From: Chryseobacterium bernardetii
GTDB lineage: Bacteria; Bacteroidota; Bacteroidia; Flavobacteriales; Weeksellaceae
Length of the DNA: 64,000 bases
Assembly: GCF_003815975.1 (NCBI RefSeq)
Contig: NZ_CP033932.1
Location: 4,445,501-4,509,500 of the forward strand
Direction of reading: 5' to 3'
Below are positions 55,863 to 63,492 of the stretch, piece after piece (the stretch's first letter is position 1; each line of letters begins with the position of its first letter). The notes beneath the pieces are model-generated. The model saw only the letters and a program-made list of their open reading frames with translations. It was not told where the DNA came from and searched no databases. The position numbers were made by a program, and so were the translations under genes.

Positions 55863-55936
55863 GGGCTCGTGGCGCAACTGAATAGCGCATCTGATTACGG
55901 CTCAGAAGGTTACAGGTTTGAATCCTGTCGAGCTCA
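55863..55936 (+). tRNA. tRNA-Arg (anticodon ACG)
   Basis: The 74-base cloverleaf can be folded by hand: acceptor stem GGGCTCG/CGAGCTC (one G-U pair) with discriminator A, anticodon arm TCTGA-TTACGGC-TCAGA with anticodon ACG, and T arm with 'GTTTGAATC'. CCA is not encoded. ACG is read as ICG after A34 deamination and decodes CGU/CGC/CGA. The 3' half serves as the integration site of the mobile element: the recombinase gene on the other strand ends inside it. Confidence 0.95.
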
Positions 55937-55940
55937 CAAG
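55902..55940. other. Probable left attachment region (tRNA 3' end) of the mobile element
   Basis: The 3' half of tRNA-Arg, from the anticodon arm through 'gagctcacaag', marks the boundary between core genes on the left and recombinase, SRAP and defence genes on the right. A direct repeat of this segment should mark the right end. I scanned from 57.4 to 64.0 kb for the 'tttgaatcctgtcgagctca' core and did not see it, so the right end lies outside the window. Confidence 0.6.
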
Positions 55941-57473
55941 ACGGGGGTTTAAATTTTTCGAATTTAAATCCCCTTTTTTTTGCTTAGATAACTCCTTCCT
56001 AATCAGGAAGATACTATCAACAAAAGAGTTGATTTTGCTAGTTTGAAAATCGCTTCCATCAAAAATTATCTTTTCAGGGTATATCAAACTTACAATTGCG
56101 CGCTTGTCTATAGGGCTAGCATTTATATACCTCTCTGAAATATTTCCAACAATTTTTAGTGCTTTGCTAATTTTATCTTCTACCCCTTCTTTTTGTTCTG
56201 ACTTTACCAGTAGGCTAAGTTTATATTCAAGGTCATCCAGTTCTCCTTTATATCTATTTTTAATATCCCTAAAATCCTCTTCATCAATTTTGTCGGACAG
56301 GTACATATCCCGCGCCTTACTAATTCTATCATTTAATTCACTAATTCTGCTCTTAAGAGTACTACGTTCACCATCAAAATTCTCAGAAGTAGACTTTGTA
56401 TTTTTTACGATTATCTTCTTTAATATTTCTAGTATTCCTGTCGGAAAATCATATTTGGAAAGCTCTTCTTTAAAAAGTTTGTTAACTTTATCAGAATGGT
56501 GTCTAAATCCACAGGCTGTGGTACAATGATAATAGTAATAATGTTTTGTATGCCCCTTTGAACTACTCGCCGTCAGATTCTTTCCGCAATTTGGACAAAG
56601 CAGAAGACCACGCAGAGGATATCTTTCTTCATTGATTATCCTTCCTCCTGGCAATCTGAGATCCTTTGTACCTTTCTTTTTCAGGACATGCTGAACCTTT
56701 AAAAACAACTCCTCCGAAATTAATGCCTCATGTTTACCCGGCACAATGTCCTCCTCTTCATTTTTATAAGCACGCACATATATTTTACCACAATAAGTAA
56801 CATTCCTCAGTGCAACCATAAAAGCATTACTAGAAATATTTTTACCCTCTCTCTTATTCATTTCCACTCTCACCTTTGCGGTTGGGAGATGGCCTTTTGC
56901 CACTTGTTCAAAAGCCCAGATTATATTCGAAGCTTCTGGTTGTTTAACGGCAACATACTTTCTTCCATCCTCAGTACACTTGTTTACATAACCGTAAGGG
57001 GCTATTCCCATCAACCGCCCCTCCTTAATTGCACGTCGCATTCCATTGGTCACGTTTAGAGCTCTCCTATCATTCTCAACTTCAGGTGTTGACAAGTAAA
57101 TAGCCAAGAGCACTTTATTTTCGGGTATACTTAGATCCAATGGCTGTTCAATCGCCTGAGGTAATATATTATTTTTTTTAAGGTGTCCAATCATTTGGTA
57201 GGCTTCGGAGGTATTCCTGCTGAATCTGTCCCATTTAGTAAACAAAATTAAGCGCTCCTCGCGATATCCGCGGCTCCTTTTGAAGCTTTGTAGATAATTT
57301 TTCCACTCGGGCCGATCAAAACTTTTCGCAGAATGGTCTTCGAAAATTACTCTGTCGATCGTAATAGCTAGCCTATCACAATGAAGACGCAAACGCTCTT
57401 CCTGGTCCCTCTGCGAGTACCCCTTATCTGCCTGTTCGTCTGTCGATACTCGGATATATAAATCTGCGATCAT
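55902..57473 (-). CDS. Large serine recombinase/integrase of the tRNA-Arg element
   Basis: The 523-residue integrase starts with the resolvase domain 'MIADLYIRVSTDEQADKGYS' (Arg8 and nucleophile Ser10), then 'LILFTKWDRFSRN' (75-87, catalytic Arg pair), the recombinase DNA-binding domain ('GIAPYGYVN', 'YCGKIYVRAYKNEEE'), a zinc ribbon 'LLCPNCGKNLTASS...HCTTACGFRH' (about 290-325) and a coiled-coil (360-450). Its last about 12 codons ('RLVSSTGFKPVTF') are antisense to the tRNA-Arg 3' half, and the preceding ones cover the tRNA terminator. The C-terminus is therefore partly dictated by the attachment site. A 76-residue companion gene lies 113 bp upstream. Confidence 0.93.
   Translation of the reverse strand: MIADLYIRVSTDEQADKGYSQRDQEERLRLHCDRLAITIDRVIFEDHSAKSFDRPEWKNYLQSFKRSRGYREERLILFTKWDRFSRNTSEAYQMIGHLKKNNILPQAIEQPLDLSIPENKVLLAIYLSTPEVENDRRALNVTNGMRRAIKEGRLMGIAPYGYVNKCTEDGRKYVAVKQPEASNIIWAFEQVAKGHLPTAKVRVEMNKREGKNISSNAFMVALRNVTYCGKIYVRAYKNEEEDIVPGKHEALISEELFLKVQHVLKKKGTKDLRLPGGRIINEERYPLRGLLLCPNCGKNLTASSSKGHTKHYYYYHCTTACGFRHHSDKVNKLFKEELSKYDFPTGILEILKKIIVKNTKSTSENFDGERSTLKSRISELNDRISKARDMYLSDKIDEEDFRDIKNRYKGELDDLEYKLSLLVKSEQKEGVEDKISKALKIVGNISERYINASPIDKRAIVSLIYPEKIIFDGSDFQTSKINSFVDSIFLIRKELSKQKKGDLNSKNLNPRLVSSTGFKPVTF
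55943..55981 (+). terminator. Terminator of tRNA-Arg
   Basis: GGGG-TTTAAATT pairs with AATTTAAA-CCCC (one mismatch), followed by eight T. It begins 7 bp after the tRNA and lies inside the 3' coding end of the recombinase gene on the other strand. Confidence 0.82.
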
Positions 57474-57817: not shown

Positions 57818-57992
57818 TCTGCATAATTATTTTCGGAATCGAAAAATTACCAACATTGCATGGCCAACATCTAAATCAGTGTAAAACTTACCTTAAATAA
57901 CCTAAACTTTCCTAATAATCTCTGTATAATGCAAAAGCATCGTTTGTATTAATTATCGCCAAGAATTGCTAAATTTATATAGGCGAATAGTA

Positions 57993-58247
57993 ATGTTATA
58001 TAAAATGGGGAATGTGTTCGAGAACAGTAAGTTTGAAATCGAGGTCAATGGCTTAAAAGTTGTTGTAATTGAACACACTTTAAGGGATCAGCAAATTTTT
58101 CGTCTCGTTTTTGACGATAATAGAGCTCCCTTGGTTATAACCTCAGCCAGAACGTGGGCAGGTGAAGTCTGGACAAGTATTCCACAAGGAAGACAGAAAG
58201 AGGCGGAGCTATTCGGTAAAGAAATTAGTGAACATTTAAAAACTTAA
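57993..58247 (+). CDS. Hypothetical protein encoded with the SRAP gene
   Basis: Not recognised. From ATG 57993 (with AGGCGA seven bases ahead) it has 84 residues; ATG 58005 is an equally possible start, and the longer 57966 start is less likely. Content: 'FEIEVNGLKVVVIEHTLRDQQIFRLVFDDNRAPLVITSAR' (strand-rich) then 'GEVWTSIPQGRQKEAELFGKEISEHL' (helical). No membrane or signal segment. It ends four bases before the SRAP start, so the two are cotranslated, and a shared DNA-damage or host-takeover role is plausible. Confidence 0.65.
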   Translation: MLYKMGNVFENSKFEIEVNGLKVVVIEHTLRDQQIFRLVFDDNRAPLVITSARTWAGEVWTSIPQGRQKEAELFGKEISEHLKT

Positions 58248-58251
58248 TCAT

Positions 58252-59082
58252 ATGTGTTATTACAATGGACAACGGGTATCTAGAGATGAATTCATTCGCT
58301 TGATGGATCTGGAAAAAGCAGTAATGAATTATGATTTTTTAGATCAAGAAATACACGAAGGCTTTAATTACGGAAATATTGCTGTTTTACGCCCAACGGA
58401 AGATAAATGCAATTTCGATATCGTCCAAATGGAATGGGGATTTATCCCTTCTTATACAAAAAACAGAGAAGATGTTAAGAAAATGCGTTTTGGCTATAAA
58501 GATGGGAACGGAAAATGGCACCAGGCTTACACAACATTAAATGCAAAAGGTGAAGAGCTGCTTATGAAGGATGAAAATACAGGTCGTGAAAAAATGTTTA
58601 GGAAAGCGGCGCTGGAAAGAAGATGTTTAATACTGTCTAGTGAATTTTATGAGTGGAGACATCTTTACCGTCTAAACAAGAGAACTAATCAACCGCTCAA
58701 AACAGCAGATAAATATCCTTATCACATCGGTCTCAAAAACAAGGATTATTTTTTTATTGCTGCAATCTGGCAAAATTGGACTGATAAGGACACAGGAGAA
58801 ACGGTGGATACCGTGGCTCTTGTAACGACAGAAGCAAATCCTCTAATGAGACAAATTCACAACTCTAAAAATCGTATGCCTACTATGTTGCCAGATGAAC
58901 TTGCATGGGAATGGATGATGCAAGATCTTAGTGAAGAACGAATCACGGAACTTGCAACCTATCAGATCAACACTTCTGAAATGGAAGCATATACAATTGA
59001 AAAAGATTTCAGAACGACTGGAACGCCGACAAAAGCATTTGTATATGCGGATGTTCCTGAACTTACATATGAGGTAAATTGA
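58252..59082 (+). CDS. SRAP domain protein (YedK/HMCES-like abasic-site shield)
   Basis: The 276-residue protein has the SRAP catalytic set: Cys2 (exposed after Met removal, forms the thiazolidine crosslink with abasic sites), Asn97 in 'TTLNAKGE', Glu131 in 'SSEFYEWRH' and His203 in 'QIHNSKNRMPTML'. Also typical are 'MEWGFIPSYT' (60-69) and 'CLILSSEFYEW'. SRAP proteins protect abasic sites in single-stranded DNA and may act in SOS-linked repair. Compared with E. coli YedK (222 residues) it has an insertion at about 68-120 and a longer tail. It is carried on the mobile element with its small partner upstream. Confidence 0.92.
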   Translation: MCYYNGQRVSRDEFIRLMDLEKAVMNYDFLDQEIHEGFNYGNIAVLRPTEDKCNFDIVQMEWGFIPSYTKNREDVKKMRFGYKDGNGKWHQAYTTLNAKGEELLMKDENTGREKMFRKAALERRCLILSSEFYEWRHLYRLNKRTNQPLKTADKYPYHIGLKNKDYFFIAAIWQNWTDKDTGETVDTVALVTTEANPLMRQIHNSKNRMPTMLPDELAWEWMMQDLSEERITELATYQINTSEMEAYTIEKDFRTTGTPTKAFVYADVPELTYEVN

Positions 59083-59157: not shown

Positions 59158-62100
59158 CTACCCATATTCAATGACCGAACTAAATCTCTGATCATTTTTA
59201 TAAGGATGAGTTTTAAAGAATTCCTCCCGCCTTTCATTGGTTTTAAAACGAACTTCACGTTCTCCCCATACCGTATAAACAAATTTTGATCTAGTTTCAG
59301 CAAGAAACTGGTCAAACAAGTCTTTTCTGAAATAAACAAAGCTATCGTTATTGTTAAAATCTTCAGCATTATTTAAGTGGATAGCCGCTAATTTTCCATC
59401 CTGGTCAAATAGGTCAAATGTCTGTGCCTCACTTATAAGTCCCAGATGATTCACAATTTCCTTTGCTAAAACTGAGATATGACCTGCATCATTAACCGGA
59501 CTGTGATAACTTTCCCAATTGTAATCCATTACTGGTATTAATACTTCAAATTCTTTATTTACATTAACTTCGACTTCAATTTCCTCTGGTAAATTTGATT
59601 CGGTGAAGTCATCAGACCAAATTAAGTTTTGATAATAACCAGGTTCATCCTTCTTGATCTTCACTTTCCTAATTTCAAGATCAAATCGTAAATCACCATA
59701 ATTACTGTAGGTAGCTTCATCAATATTATACAATTCGCCAGCGAAGCAATAATAATTTTCACTTTTATCCGGAATTTGAATTTGAGAAAAATTTTGACCT
59801 TTTAATAATTTAATGACTTCATCATATTGCGAGTCTTCGATAACCATTCCTCGAACTACGAGATAGCTATTTCGCTCTGTGGAAATCTCCTCCTGTACAA
59901 TAAAGCCATCCAAGCAAACCCAAGGACCTGGGTTTCCATTAATCTCATCGATCTCCAAATAACCATCAAATATAGGCGTTCCTCCGTTTTCATACCATTC
60001 GTTTAAAGGTGTTGACCTGTCTCCCAATAAATCATTTTTAAAAAAAGGTTCGTTTGCTGTCTTCTTAGGAAAGCTGGGATCGATATTTGCATCAGAAAGT
60101 CGAAACCTGTCCCAATCCTTATCTAACAAACCAAGGTCTGCCCGTAATCCAGCATTTTCAAAATAAGCGATCCATGAATATTTTTTTCCATACCGCTCGA
60201 CTTTGGCTTGTCTACTTCTGTTACTATTGTAATAATTATCGTTTCCTAAAGCAGTTTCGACTGCACCGAACATATCTGTATTCCAGCCCAAATCATATAT
60301 CCTCCAATATATTTGTTTTCTTACCTTAATTTTTTCTTCAGGATTGGAATATGCATGACCTCCATTGACTATCCGTCCTAATGTATAATTGCTAAAATCC
60401 ATTTGCATTGGTCGATCATAGCCATAATCGTTTTCTCCATAATCGAATTCTTGTAATGCTCTTATTCCTCCAAAAGTGTATGGTGGTCGAATATTCAGCT
60501 GCTGTTCTGTATTTAATAAAGTAGGATGATGAATTAAGCCAATTTCTATAACTCGTCTTGCGTAGTCTCTGGCTAGAATATGCGTAGTTCCAAATCTTGC
60601 ATCTTTGGCAAAGATTAGGTCGTATAAGGATTTACAAAATACAGGTAGCACGTTATTTCGGAAGTGTTCTCCCGCTATAGAGTTATATTGAGCCATCACA
60701 ATACCATAAGATGCTGCCAGTGTGCGCTCCCAGATATATGGGTCATTGTATCCCAACGATTCCTCCACTAAAGCGATGAATTCCTCTGGAAACTTCCTGC
60801 CATAAAAATATAGTGCTCTTGTGACCTGATCACGTAAGGCTCGATCGGTACTTGTTAAAAACCAGACTATTGCTTTCGAAACTAATTTTTGCTTTCTTAG
60901 TATTATGTCCGATTCATGGCTGATGTTACGGCATTGATTTTCAAATTCGGAAATAAACTGCTCCAATTGATAGCTGTTCTTCCTTACGTATTCCGTCCAG
61001 GTAATATCACGCTCATTCATCTTTAATCTGGCTAGAATTGTGCTCAGGAAAATCGCATTGAGCGGGTGGTTTACATCGCCCATCGTTTTAAAAGAGAGAT
61101 CAAAAAGGATTTCTTTATTTTCATTATTTATCATGAAAACTTTAGCAACTAAATCAATATCACTTGTTTTTACCAGCCGACCAGGCAATACAAAAAGTGA
61201 TTGGAAAGATTTATCAAAGACAAAATCCGAAAAATCAGCCAGGTCTGCCACTCTGGTTTTCAGGAATCGTGGCAGATAATTATAAATCTTAGAATCCGCA
61301 AGCTTAACTAGCCAGTCACTTCGTAATAATTGATGAAATGTGCTATTTTTTAGCTGTGGCAGCAGCAAACATAGTGCAGCTATGACATCTTCGAAAAGGG
61401 GATGTTGACCTTCTGGAAGAAACACCTGTCCAATAAATTTTTTGCTTTTAAAAAATGAAAGATCTGCATTATTGGTAATTAAATTTTCAGCAATCATATA
61501 GCCTGCAAGGACATCGTATGTAAAGCTTATATATTCAGTTTCACTTCTAATATCCCGATTTATCACAAGACCTTCATCAAGAAGTATATCAGCCTTTGAT
61601 TTATCTTTCTCATAATTATCATTTTCGTCAATTAAGGCATAAAAATCCCCTACCGGCAGCTCCCGCAGATTATTTACCCAAAGATAATTAGACAATTTTT
61701 TTAGGGATTCAGAAATAAAATTCTCATTGCTTCTAAGGATCGGCTTATTTCTGGTTACTTTCCTGTTGATCTGCGTCAAATACTCATTAAAAATATCGTA
61801 AGATGACTCCTCTTCAATGTTTACCGCAATTTCACCAGAATGCTTCCAGTTAGGATTCTTTATTTCGCAAAATATTTTAAGAAAGATTGGGTCGCCAAAT
61901 TTATCAATCGAAGCAAAAAATAAATCCGACTTCAGTTTATATTTCTTGAAATATTTTTGAACCGCTTCATGAATAGTTTCGGAATCGCGGAATCCATCTA
62001 TATTATGAAATTCAGGTTTATAAGTGTCGTCCCATATCCTATCAGCATATGAACCTCGACAGGTGGTAATTATAGCGACATTCTTTGTCTGTTTAATCTT

Positions 62101-63492
62101 TGCAATAAATCCTTGTAGATGGTTCCTCCAGATAGGTGAAAAAAGCCTATTGGAAACCGTTTCATTCAGACCATCTATAACAATAGGAATCCTTACTTTA
62201 TGGATTGACCCATAAACTTCCAAAGCATTTAAAAGGTCATCAAATGAATATTCTTGCGGTATATCTAGAATTTTACGCACTGTATCGCTGATACTGGTCT
62301 CATCAGTAAATTTATCACCTGTCAAAAATATTACTGGTTTCGACTCTTTAATTCTGTTAAATGCAATATCAGTGGATATATGTGTTTTACCTTTGGCTGC
62401 ATCACCTATAAAATGCAGCTGCCTCTGGTTTCCATGAAAATAATTTCTAAAAAAACGTCCGAAGTCTTGTGAAAAATTTGACATTAAGGATGTGATATTC
62501 TGCGACTCCCTAGATGCCCTTGATGTTTCATCAAAATCAAATTCATCAAGTTTAGTATGGAAAGCGATCCACTTCGATCGTAAATCCTCGGTACTGAATA
62601 GCGCTAGTTTTTCAGGTTCACACTTTTTAAAGCATTCATCAACAAAGTCAATTTTACCAACAGTCTGTTTTACAAGATCTTCAAATTCATGACAAGCTGA
62701 AAAAAAATCTCTTCTCAGAGCTTCCTCCGCGGGGCTGATCATGGTAGTGTTATGAAAGTTGTGTAGTTCCTTGCCTACCTGATTGGCTACCTGCAGGAGA
62801 TCACTTTTAAGCTTTCCCGTCAGGTTAGTATAGTTTGGATCAAGTACTACACAATCTATTATGGATTTTGTGAACTGATCAATAGCATGCAATTCAGGAT
62901 CGTATTTATCCTTTACCTTCTCAAAATTTTCAAAAAACTTTGTTGTAAACCAACCCTGATTTAGTTCAAGTTCCCCAAAAAAGAAACTACGTACACCTTC
63001 GTTTTTAGGTTCTTTTAAGAATGCAATAATTTTTGATTCTCCCCAAAATTCCAGAGAGATTGCACGACCAACAGGAATTTTTTTCGGTAGTTCATCATCG
63101 AACCAATTCTTCTCGCCTTTACTGAATTTTCCCGCTTTCGAAGTACTTTCCGTTGTAAGATCAGTTTTAAGGCAAACAAAATATTTCGTTAAATTTCCAT
63201 GATTCCTAATTGCTGTCTCAAAGGAATTTGAAATAGCTAAGTCTCTATTAGCAATACTTAATCTTCCTGTATCACCAAAAAATTTACATTGCCAGCCCCA
63301 TCTTTCGCCAGAATGATGATCGAGATAAAATTCTACCCCACCGTCTCCTCCGCTCCCGTCAATCGCCGTAAATGTTCCTAAATGTCCATATTCTTTGATT
63401 GCCAGCTGGTAACATAGGTGCTCGAAACACTGCGTGGCCTTCCCATTATAGGGCTTAAGTCTGTTGAAGTCAACTTTATCAATTGTAATCAT
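59158..63492 (-). CDS. Mrr-like nuclease fused to a STAND NTPase, probable Avs-type anti-phage defence protein
   Basis: From ATG 63490-63492 the product has 1444 residues. Residues 15-110 form a PD-(D/E)XK nuclease of the Mrr kind: Glu24 in 'CFEHLCYQL', 'GSGGDGGVEF' (Asp50, Glu54) and 'WQCKFF' (Gln68, Lys70). A helical linker (180-350) leads to a P-loop NTPase: Walker A 'GDAAKGKTH' (363-371), Walker B 'IPIVIDGLNE' (435-444), and 'NVAIITTCRGSY' as sensor. The remaining 900 residues are helical-repeat-like up to about 1100, then strand-rich. Nuclease-STAND-sensor is the order of Avs proteins, which detect phage proteins and then cut DNA. The alternative start at 63525 adds residues before the nuclease and is unlikely. 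Confidence 0.85.
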   Translation of the reverse strand: MITIDKVDFNRLKPYNGKATQCFEHLCYQLAIKEYGHLGTFTAIDGSGGDGGVEFYLDHHSGERWGWQCKFFGDTGRLSIANRDLAISNSFETAIRNHGNLTKYFVCLKTDLTTESTSKAGKFSKGEKNWFDDELPKKIPVGRAISLEFWGESKIIAFLKEPKNEGVRSFFFGELELNQGWFTTKFFENFEKVKDKYDPELHAIDQFTKSIIDCVVLDPNYTNLTGKLKSDLLQVANQVGKELHNFHNTTMISPAEEALRRDFFSACHEFEDLVKQTVGKIDFVDECFKKCEPEKLALFSTEDLRSKWIAFHTKLDEFDFDETSRASRESQNITSLMSNFSQDFGRFFRNYFHGNQRQLHFIGDAAKGKTHISTDIAFNRIKESKPVIFLTGDKFTDETSISDTVRKILDIPQEYSFDDLLNALEVYGSIHKVRIPIVIDGLNETVSNRLFSPIWRNHLQGFIAKIKQTKNVAIITTCRGSYADRIWDDTYKPEFHNIDGFRDSETIHEAVQKYFKKYKLKSDLFFASIDKFGDPIFLKIFCEIKNPNWKHSGEIAVNIEEESSYDIFNEYLTQINRKVTRNKPILRSNENFISESLKKLSNYLWVNNLRELPVGDFYALIDENDNYEKDKSKADILLDEGLVINRDIRSETEYISFTYDVLAGYMIAENLITNNADLSFFKSKKFIGQVFLPEGQHPLFEDVIAALCLLLPQLKNSTFHQLLRSDWLVKLADSKIYNYLPRFLKTRVADLADFSDFVFDKSFQSLFVLPGRLVKTSDIDLVAKVFMINNENKEILFDLSFKTMGDVNHPLNAIFLSTILARLKMNERDITWTEYVRKNSYQLEQFISEFENQCRNISHESDIILRKQKLVSKAIVWFLTSTDRALRDQVTRALYFYGRKFPEEFIALVEESLGYNDPYIWERTLAASYGIVMAQYNSIAGEHFRNNVLPVFCKSLYDLIFAKDARFGTTHILARDYARRVIEIGLIHHPTLLNTEQQLNIRPPYTFGGIRALQEFDYGENDYGYDRPMQMDFSNYTLGRIVNGGHAYSNPEEKIKVRKQIYWRIYDLGWNTDMFGAVETALGNDNYYNSNRSRQAKVERYGKKYSWIAYFENAGLRADLGLLDKDWDRFRLSDANIDPSFPKKTANEPFFKNDLLGDRSTPLNEWYENGGTPIFDGYLEIDEINGNPGPWVCLDGFIVQEEISTERNSYLVVRGMVIEDSQYDEVIKLLKGQNFSQIQIPDKSENYYCFAGELYNIDEATYSNYGDLRFDLEIRKVKIKKDEPGYYQNLIWSDDFTESNLPEEIEVEVNVNKEFEVLIPVMDYNWESYHSPVNDAGHISVLAKEIVNHLGLISEAQTFDLFDQDGKLAAIHLNNAEDFNNNDSFVYFRKDLFDQFLAETRSKFVYTVWGEREVRFKTNERREEFFKTHPYKNDQRFSSVIEYG

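Follow-up and report, generated by a model that had tools for sequence, protein, structure and literature searches.

A divergent Avs2-type protein, probably a single-gene anti-phage sensor, on a tRNA-Arg-integrated element of Chryseobacterium bernardetii

Results and discussion

Gene and domain layout

The DNA analysed here (the window) comprises 64,000 nucleotides of the Chryseobacterium bernardetii genome (assembly GCF_003815975.1, contig NZ_CP033932.1, positions 4,445,501 to 4,509,500) and contains, on the minus strand at 59158..63492, an avs2-like gene coding for a protein of 1444 amino acids with the order nuclease, STAND NTPase and C-terminal sensor. Judged by its sequence, this protein is a divergent member of the Avs2 type and thus belongs to an already known type of defence gene, on an unusually divergent branch. 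The open reading frame (ORF) starts with ATG and has zero internal stops; an alternative TTG start, 33 bases further upstream, would yield a protein of 1455 amino acids.

The N-terminal PD-(D/E)XK (Mrr-like) nuclease covers residues 1 to ~173 (62974..63492, minus strand, as for all parts of the gene) and includes E24, E54 and Q68-x-K70. A linker (residues ~174-344, 62460..62973), mainly helical in the predicted model, connects it to the STAND NTPase core (residues ~345-600, 61693..62459), which was delimited by alignment as well as profile and sequence matches and contains the Walker A motif GDAAKGKT (residues 363-370, 62383-62406) and the Walker B motif IVIDGLNE (residues 437-444, 62161-62184). 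The C-terminal half is composed of a mainly helical part (residues ~601-1179, 59956..61692), defined by the predicted model and a fold match, and a strand-rich domain (residues ~1180-1444, 59161..59955), which is apparent from the predicted model and from pieces of the Avs2 profile and lies inside the range matched by Avs3. Structures were predicted for two pieces of the protein, residues 1-345 and 600-1444; in the second, residues 600 to ~1120 are mainly helical and the strand-rich portion begins at ~1180. All residues singled out by an initial annotation of this DNA (Glu24, Asp50, Glu54, QCK 68-70 and Lys369) were found where it had placed them. A Pfam scan of the protein revealed nothing useful (best match IstB_IS21, E value 0.08).

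Assignment to Avs2

The initial annotation had proposed an Mrr-type nuclease fused to a STAND NTPase with Walker A and B motifs, a member of the Avs family without a clear named subtype. The family is borne out, and comparison with Avs profiles does name a subtype: all six Avs2 models of PADLOC (PDLC02161-02166) match the protein, the best at 541.6 bits (E value 1.2e-162), with the match of PDLC02162 spanning residues 7-1423. The NCBIfam Avs2 model NF041813 scores 348.8 bits (E value 7.6e-104), below its equivalog cut-off of 1000 bits, and the protein is therefore filed as a divergent Avs2-type protein rather than as an NF041813 equivalog. In an alignment of 30 rows (the protein and 29 of 120 listed homologues), every row matches NF041813 (best E value 7.5e-126), as well as each of the six Avs2 models of PADLOC. 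The sole strong match of a PDB sequence search was the Avs2 entry 9o4e; a PDB search with a profile of residues 1-345 gave chance-like matches only among the 60 of 65 that were listed. Entry 9o4e is not among the fold-search matches, which shows nothing for or against Avs2.

A profile of the 30 rows was compared by hhalign with a profile of eight Avs2 proteins, seven of them from Chryseobacterium and one, annotated as avs2, from Rhodothermus marinus; L141, one of the seven, itself falls short of the NCBI cut-off. The two profiles are colinear almost end to end (1291 columns, probability 100, E value 7e-121; columns 5-1391 of 1449), and a profile-profile comparison of the C-terminal half with Avs2 gave an E value of 1.9e-71. 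Equivalents of K369, D440 and E444 are present in 8/8 of the compared Avs2 proteins and in all 11 Avs2-like rows of the tree described below. E24, E54, Q68 and K70 are matched in only five of the eight (L135, L136 and L141 differ), and the Mrr-like nuclease is therefore regarded as one of at least two effectors within Avs2, not as an Avs2 constant.

The initial annotation had likened the protein to the Avs4 type, and the closest fold to the predicted N-terminal nuclease piece is indeed Avs4 bound to phage portal (8dgf). Rows of the 30-row alignment also touch Avs4 models weakly (2/30 with NCBIfam, 1/30 with PADLOC). The protein itself, however, has no match to the Avs4 models of PADLOC and NCBIfam at E values up to 1; among the Avs models it matches those of Avs2 only, and it is colinear with Avs2 in its NTPase and sensor. 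Avs4 membership was rejected on these grounds, and an Avs4-type protein, i.e. a portal sensor, is an extremely unlikely reading of the gene.

The C-terminal sensor region

For the C-terminal piece, the best fold match is the Avs3 sensor bound to phage terminase (8dgc); Avs4 is a far weaker Foldseek match at rank 46 (E value 0.15). By sequence, Avs3 was without a match in the PDB search, and none of the PADLOC Avs3 models matches the protein. The candidate view of a C-terminus unlike known sensors was rejected given the colinearity with Avs2 together with the Avs3 fold match. The initial annotation had described the C-terminal third, after about residue 1100, as strand-rich and had taken this to suggest a different trigger; the strands are retained in the predicted model, from ~1180 instead of 1100, but they give no argument for an unusual trigger because the best fold match is a terminase-bound Avs3 sensor.

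Conservation of nuclease and NTPase residues

The homologue search, restricted to the 7993 candidates with the most shared words, found 229 homologues, 120 of which were listed; 108 of these, with at least 1330 amino acids, were aligned with the protein (109 rows). In the nuclease, Glu54 is conserved in 109/109 rows, Glu24 in 107 (two gaps), Gln68 in 108 (one gap) and Lys70 in 107 (one arginine, one gap). The expectation that the nuclease motif is kept in homologues thus holds for these four near-invariant residues but not for Asp50, which is variable (D 85, G 18, gap 6). Since Asp50 varies and Glu54 is present in every row, Glu54 is the likely catalytic acid, together with Glu24 and Lys70. 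In the NTPase, Lys369 and Glu444 are conserved in 109/109 rows and Asp440 in 108/109.

Conservation was also counted in 55 rows that partly overlap with this set, the protein and 54 loci from a genome scan, which found 200 relatives and kept 78 loci; the 56 of these 78 with near-full matches were taken, minus L017 and L036 (stops or frame break). Glu24, Glu54, Gln68, Lys369, Asp440 and Glu444 are conserved in 55/55 rows, and the position of Lys70 holds K in 50 rows, with R in the other 5. The scan demanded one of two peptide patterns; since one of them, WGWQ[CA]K[FY][FY], includes both Gln68 and Lys70, conservation of these two among the scanned loci is partly built in, and the 109-row alignment provides the fairer count. 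The pattern of conservation marks the ORF product as a real, constrained protein rather than a chance reading frame.

A cross-phylum clade beside canonical Avs2

A quick, unrooted tree of residues 355-1011 was calculated for 59 rows (the protein, 27 of the 120 listed homologues, 20 loci out of the 54, and a further 11 Avs2-like proteins that come from the genus or from a named plasmid), covering Avs2-like proteins without the other Avs types. The tree separates the protein and 48 further rows from nine rows that are canonical or near-canonical Avs2 (SH-aLRT, an approximate likelihood ratio test, 99 and 98). L130 and L144 sit on very long branches; the first belongs to neither side, and the second, which is also from the genus, falls on the side of the protein. 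Named loci on this side stem from Bacteroidota, Cyanobacteriota, Bacillota, Pseudomonadota, Verrucomicrobiota, Planctomycetota, Nitrospirota, Thermodesulfobacteriota and Rhodothermota. Within this unrooted tree, the clade is placed as a cross-phylum sister group beside canonical Avs2, and the gene shows that Avs2-type sensors extend beyond what the NCBI Avs2 model names.

The best named homologue is P0002 (85 %, Chryseobacterium). Few relatives of the genome carry the gene: a match of any kind was obtained in 7 of 196 other genomes, with best pieces 24-27 % identical and short further pieces reaching up to 41 %. Some match to NF041813 was detected in 36 of 173 genomes of the genus (the own genome included), and six of the 173 have one above the cut-off. 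Matches were found in 76 of 72,556 plasmid records, three of which cover at least 80 % of the protein, and in 2 of 50,697 phage records, both partial only. The genome of Tenacibaculum larymnensis LAR25 carries a full-length relative (L005, 56 % identical), and a published account of this strain lists one avs2A, an AVAST type II STAND ATPase named by annotation (PMC10013915). Since LAR25 holds L005 and a single avs2A is listed, a member of the clade, presumably L005 itself, seems to be already filed as Avs2.

A tRNA-Arg-integrated element with exchanged cassettes

The proposed location on a mobile element is confirmed. The left edge is formed by a tRNA-Arg (acg) gene (55863..55937, plus strand), into which a large serine recombinase gene (55902..57473, minus strand) extends with its 3' end by 36 bases (55902-55937). 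The flank with the tRNA-Arg gene was matched in 59/59 genomes searched (own included; in G038 over part only). Similarity to the own genome stops at 55937-55943 in 23 of 29 loci from other genomes and continues in six; L088, one of the 23, has a further short similar piece in the recombinase. In at least 16 of 58 other genomes of the genus, a member of the recombinase family likewise reaches into this end of the tRNA gene, by 33-41 bases. No second copy of the tRNA region was found as a right end in a 12-mer scan within 122 kb, and searches of the own genome with the sequence downstream of the tRNA gene in two relatives gave weak scattered matches or none. Gene order in G010 is the same to ~83,976 (window-extended numbering) and resumes at 92,554, the intervening gap being extra genes of the own genome; the shared region from 92,554 onward may be chromosome.

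The recombinase is 98-99 % identical in four other genomes (G010, G205, G042 and G250), whose elements share a backbone at 93-99 % identity: a 93-amino-acid protein (57966..58247, plus strand; placed in the backbone by comparison of related elements) and a SRAP (YedK/HMCES-like) protein (58252..59082, plus strand; family match and element comparison). Two further backbone proteins of 484 and 285-292 amino acids are 94-97 % identical in the three elements where the compared stretch reaches them. Within this backbone (55902 to ~83976, extended numbering) two slots hold different genes. The first contains the avs2-like gene in the own genome. In G010 and G205 it contains another Avs2-like protein of 1424 amino acids plus further genes, in G010 among them one NACHT and one PolyA-polymerase-like protein (Pfam); the 1424-amino-acid proteins are 97.5 % identical to each other and 22.6-23.7 % identical to the present protein over the first ~480 residues. 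In G042 and G250 it is occupied by four genes, 95-99 % identical between both genomes, one coding for an ADP-ribosyltransferase/glycohydrolase (ART/ARG-type) protein (Pfam, G042 tested). The second slot of the own genome, right of the window (69305-75804, window-extended numbering), carries a second AVAST system consisting of Avs1b (trypsin-NACHT; L080:6806-12052) and Avs1a (metallo-beta-lactamase fold; L080:12049-13305). In G010, G042 and G250, where the stretch reaches, a bSEFIR protein is encoded instead (PDLC03957, 6e-97, G042 tested); that of G042 is 98.7-99.0 % identical in G010 and G250.

Cassettes swapped between near-identical backbones support a defence role as well as exchange by recombination. 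A passenger STAND regulator or nuclease without defence role would agree with the rarity of the gene among relatives, and the literature read gave no phage test for the clade; it is nevertheless very unlikely, given the patchy distribution, the exchange of cassettes, some of which are defence genes, the Avs1a/Avs1b pair nearby and the conserved nuclease active site. Avs2-type sensors are thereby seen to move as interchangeable cassettes of an element integrated at a tRNA gene, and different sensors in the same slot of a nearly identical element offer a natural comparison for the phage proteins sensed.

Two other regions lie to the right. At 63806-64942, running past the window end, a protein of 378 amino acids is encoded in which inspection by eye shows likely membrane helices and the stretch GDGGKDGYV, which resembles a nuclease motif; a homologue is present in 5/5 compared relatives (43-97 % identity), and the family search gave a weak DUF4153 match only. 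At L081:12103-16949, a phage-baseplate/VgrG-like gene and a DUF4280-Ntox15 protein mark a likely contractile-injection (type VI secretion system-type) effector region.

Partner genes in related loci

In 26 of the 78 related loci (L039, L042, L044, L046, L047, L050-L057, L059, L061, L065-L068, L072-L074, L076-L079), radical-SAM and DUF6375 genes lie directly upstream of the Avs2-like gene and in its orientation; the avs2-like gene of the window is without these partners. Tested on L054 and L077, the former product belongs to PF04055 and the latter to PF19902; the radical-SAM protein also matches PADLOC prokaryotic viperins weakly and in part. The gap between the DUF6375 and Avs2-like ORFs is 2-30 bases in 23 of 25 measurable loci (automatic starts), and in the 16-row tree branch concerned 15/15 locus rows belong to the 26. 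In the genus of L066 (Acinetobacter bouvetii), DUF6375 occurs in 3 of 149 genomes, one being that of L066; the other two both have the radical-SAM gene upstream and an Avs2-like gene downstream. DUF6375 found no mention in the literature searched. The arrangement is a possible three-gene defence operon or variant, and the branch linked to it offers a testable new variant. A more far-reaching view, that the clade from Bacteroidota and many other phyla is an Avs type in its own right with a distinct set of triggers, a branch of it having gained radical-SAM and DUF6375 as obligate partners in a three-gene system where chemical modification or a small product gates the nuclease-STAND sensor, is speculative and rather unlikely.

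Genes of type I restriction-modification also occur near Avs2-like genes: HsdM-family and HsdS ORFs in 10 of the 78 loci each (11 loci in all: L007, L023, L024, L026, L029, L037, L045, L046, L062, L063, L076; families tested on L007 and L026) and HsdR in seven. In L023, the Avs2-like gene sits between the HsdM-family and HsdS-family ORFs.

Proposed mechanism

We consider the gene to code for a single-gene Avs2-type (AVAST type 2-like) anti-phage sensor of a divergent clade, acting as outlined below, with a probability of about 0.8. The family, the architecture, the conserved nuclease and NTPase residues, the predicted folds and the mobile location were computed here; trigger, oligomerisation, DNA cutting and abortive outcome are drawn from characterised Avs proteins. 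In the uninfected cell the protein would be at rest and inactive. Upon infection, its C-terminal helical and strand-rich region would bind a phage DNA-packaging protein, for which the large terminase subunit is the most likely candidate, at somewhat better than even odds. The STAND NTPase, nucleotide bound, would then oligomerise and bring the N-terminal Mrr-like nucleases together, and the ensuing indiscriminate DNA cutting would halt the phage while sacrificing the cell.

The same machine could respond to another trigger: instead of terminase, the C-terminal region would recognise portal, a Ksap1-like protein or some other protein of the phage. Recent reports describe sensing of Ksap1, too, by KpAvs2 (PMC12931631, PMC12724215) and a response of an Alcaligenes Avs2 elicited by lambda portal (PMC13141931), and the tree places the present clade at a distance from canonical Avs2. 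The nearest sensor fold is, however, that of terminase-bound Avs3, with the portal sensor Avs4 far down the Foldseek ranking, and a different trigger is a tentative option, clearly short of an even chance.

Comparison with known Avs systems

With Avs3 (8dgc), the protein of the Avs2-type sensor proposed here would share the fold of the sensor, as predicted. With Avs4 (8dgf), the predicted nuclease fold is alike, whereas NTPase and sensor go with Avs2 instead. With Avs2 (AVAST type 2), it has in common the order of effector, STAND NTPase and C-terminal sensor within a single gene, and it differs by its sister-group position in the unrooted tree and its score below the NF041813 cut-off; among Avs2-like proteins from its own genus, the best matches are 22-27 % identical.

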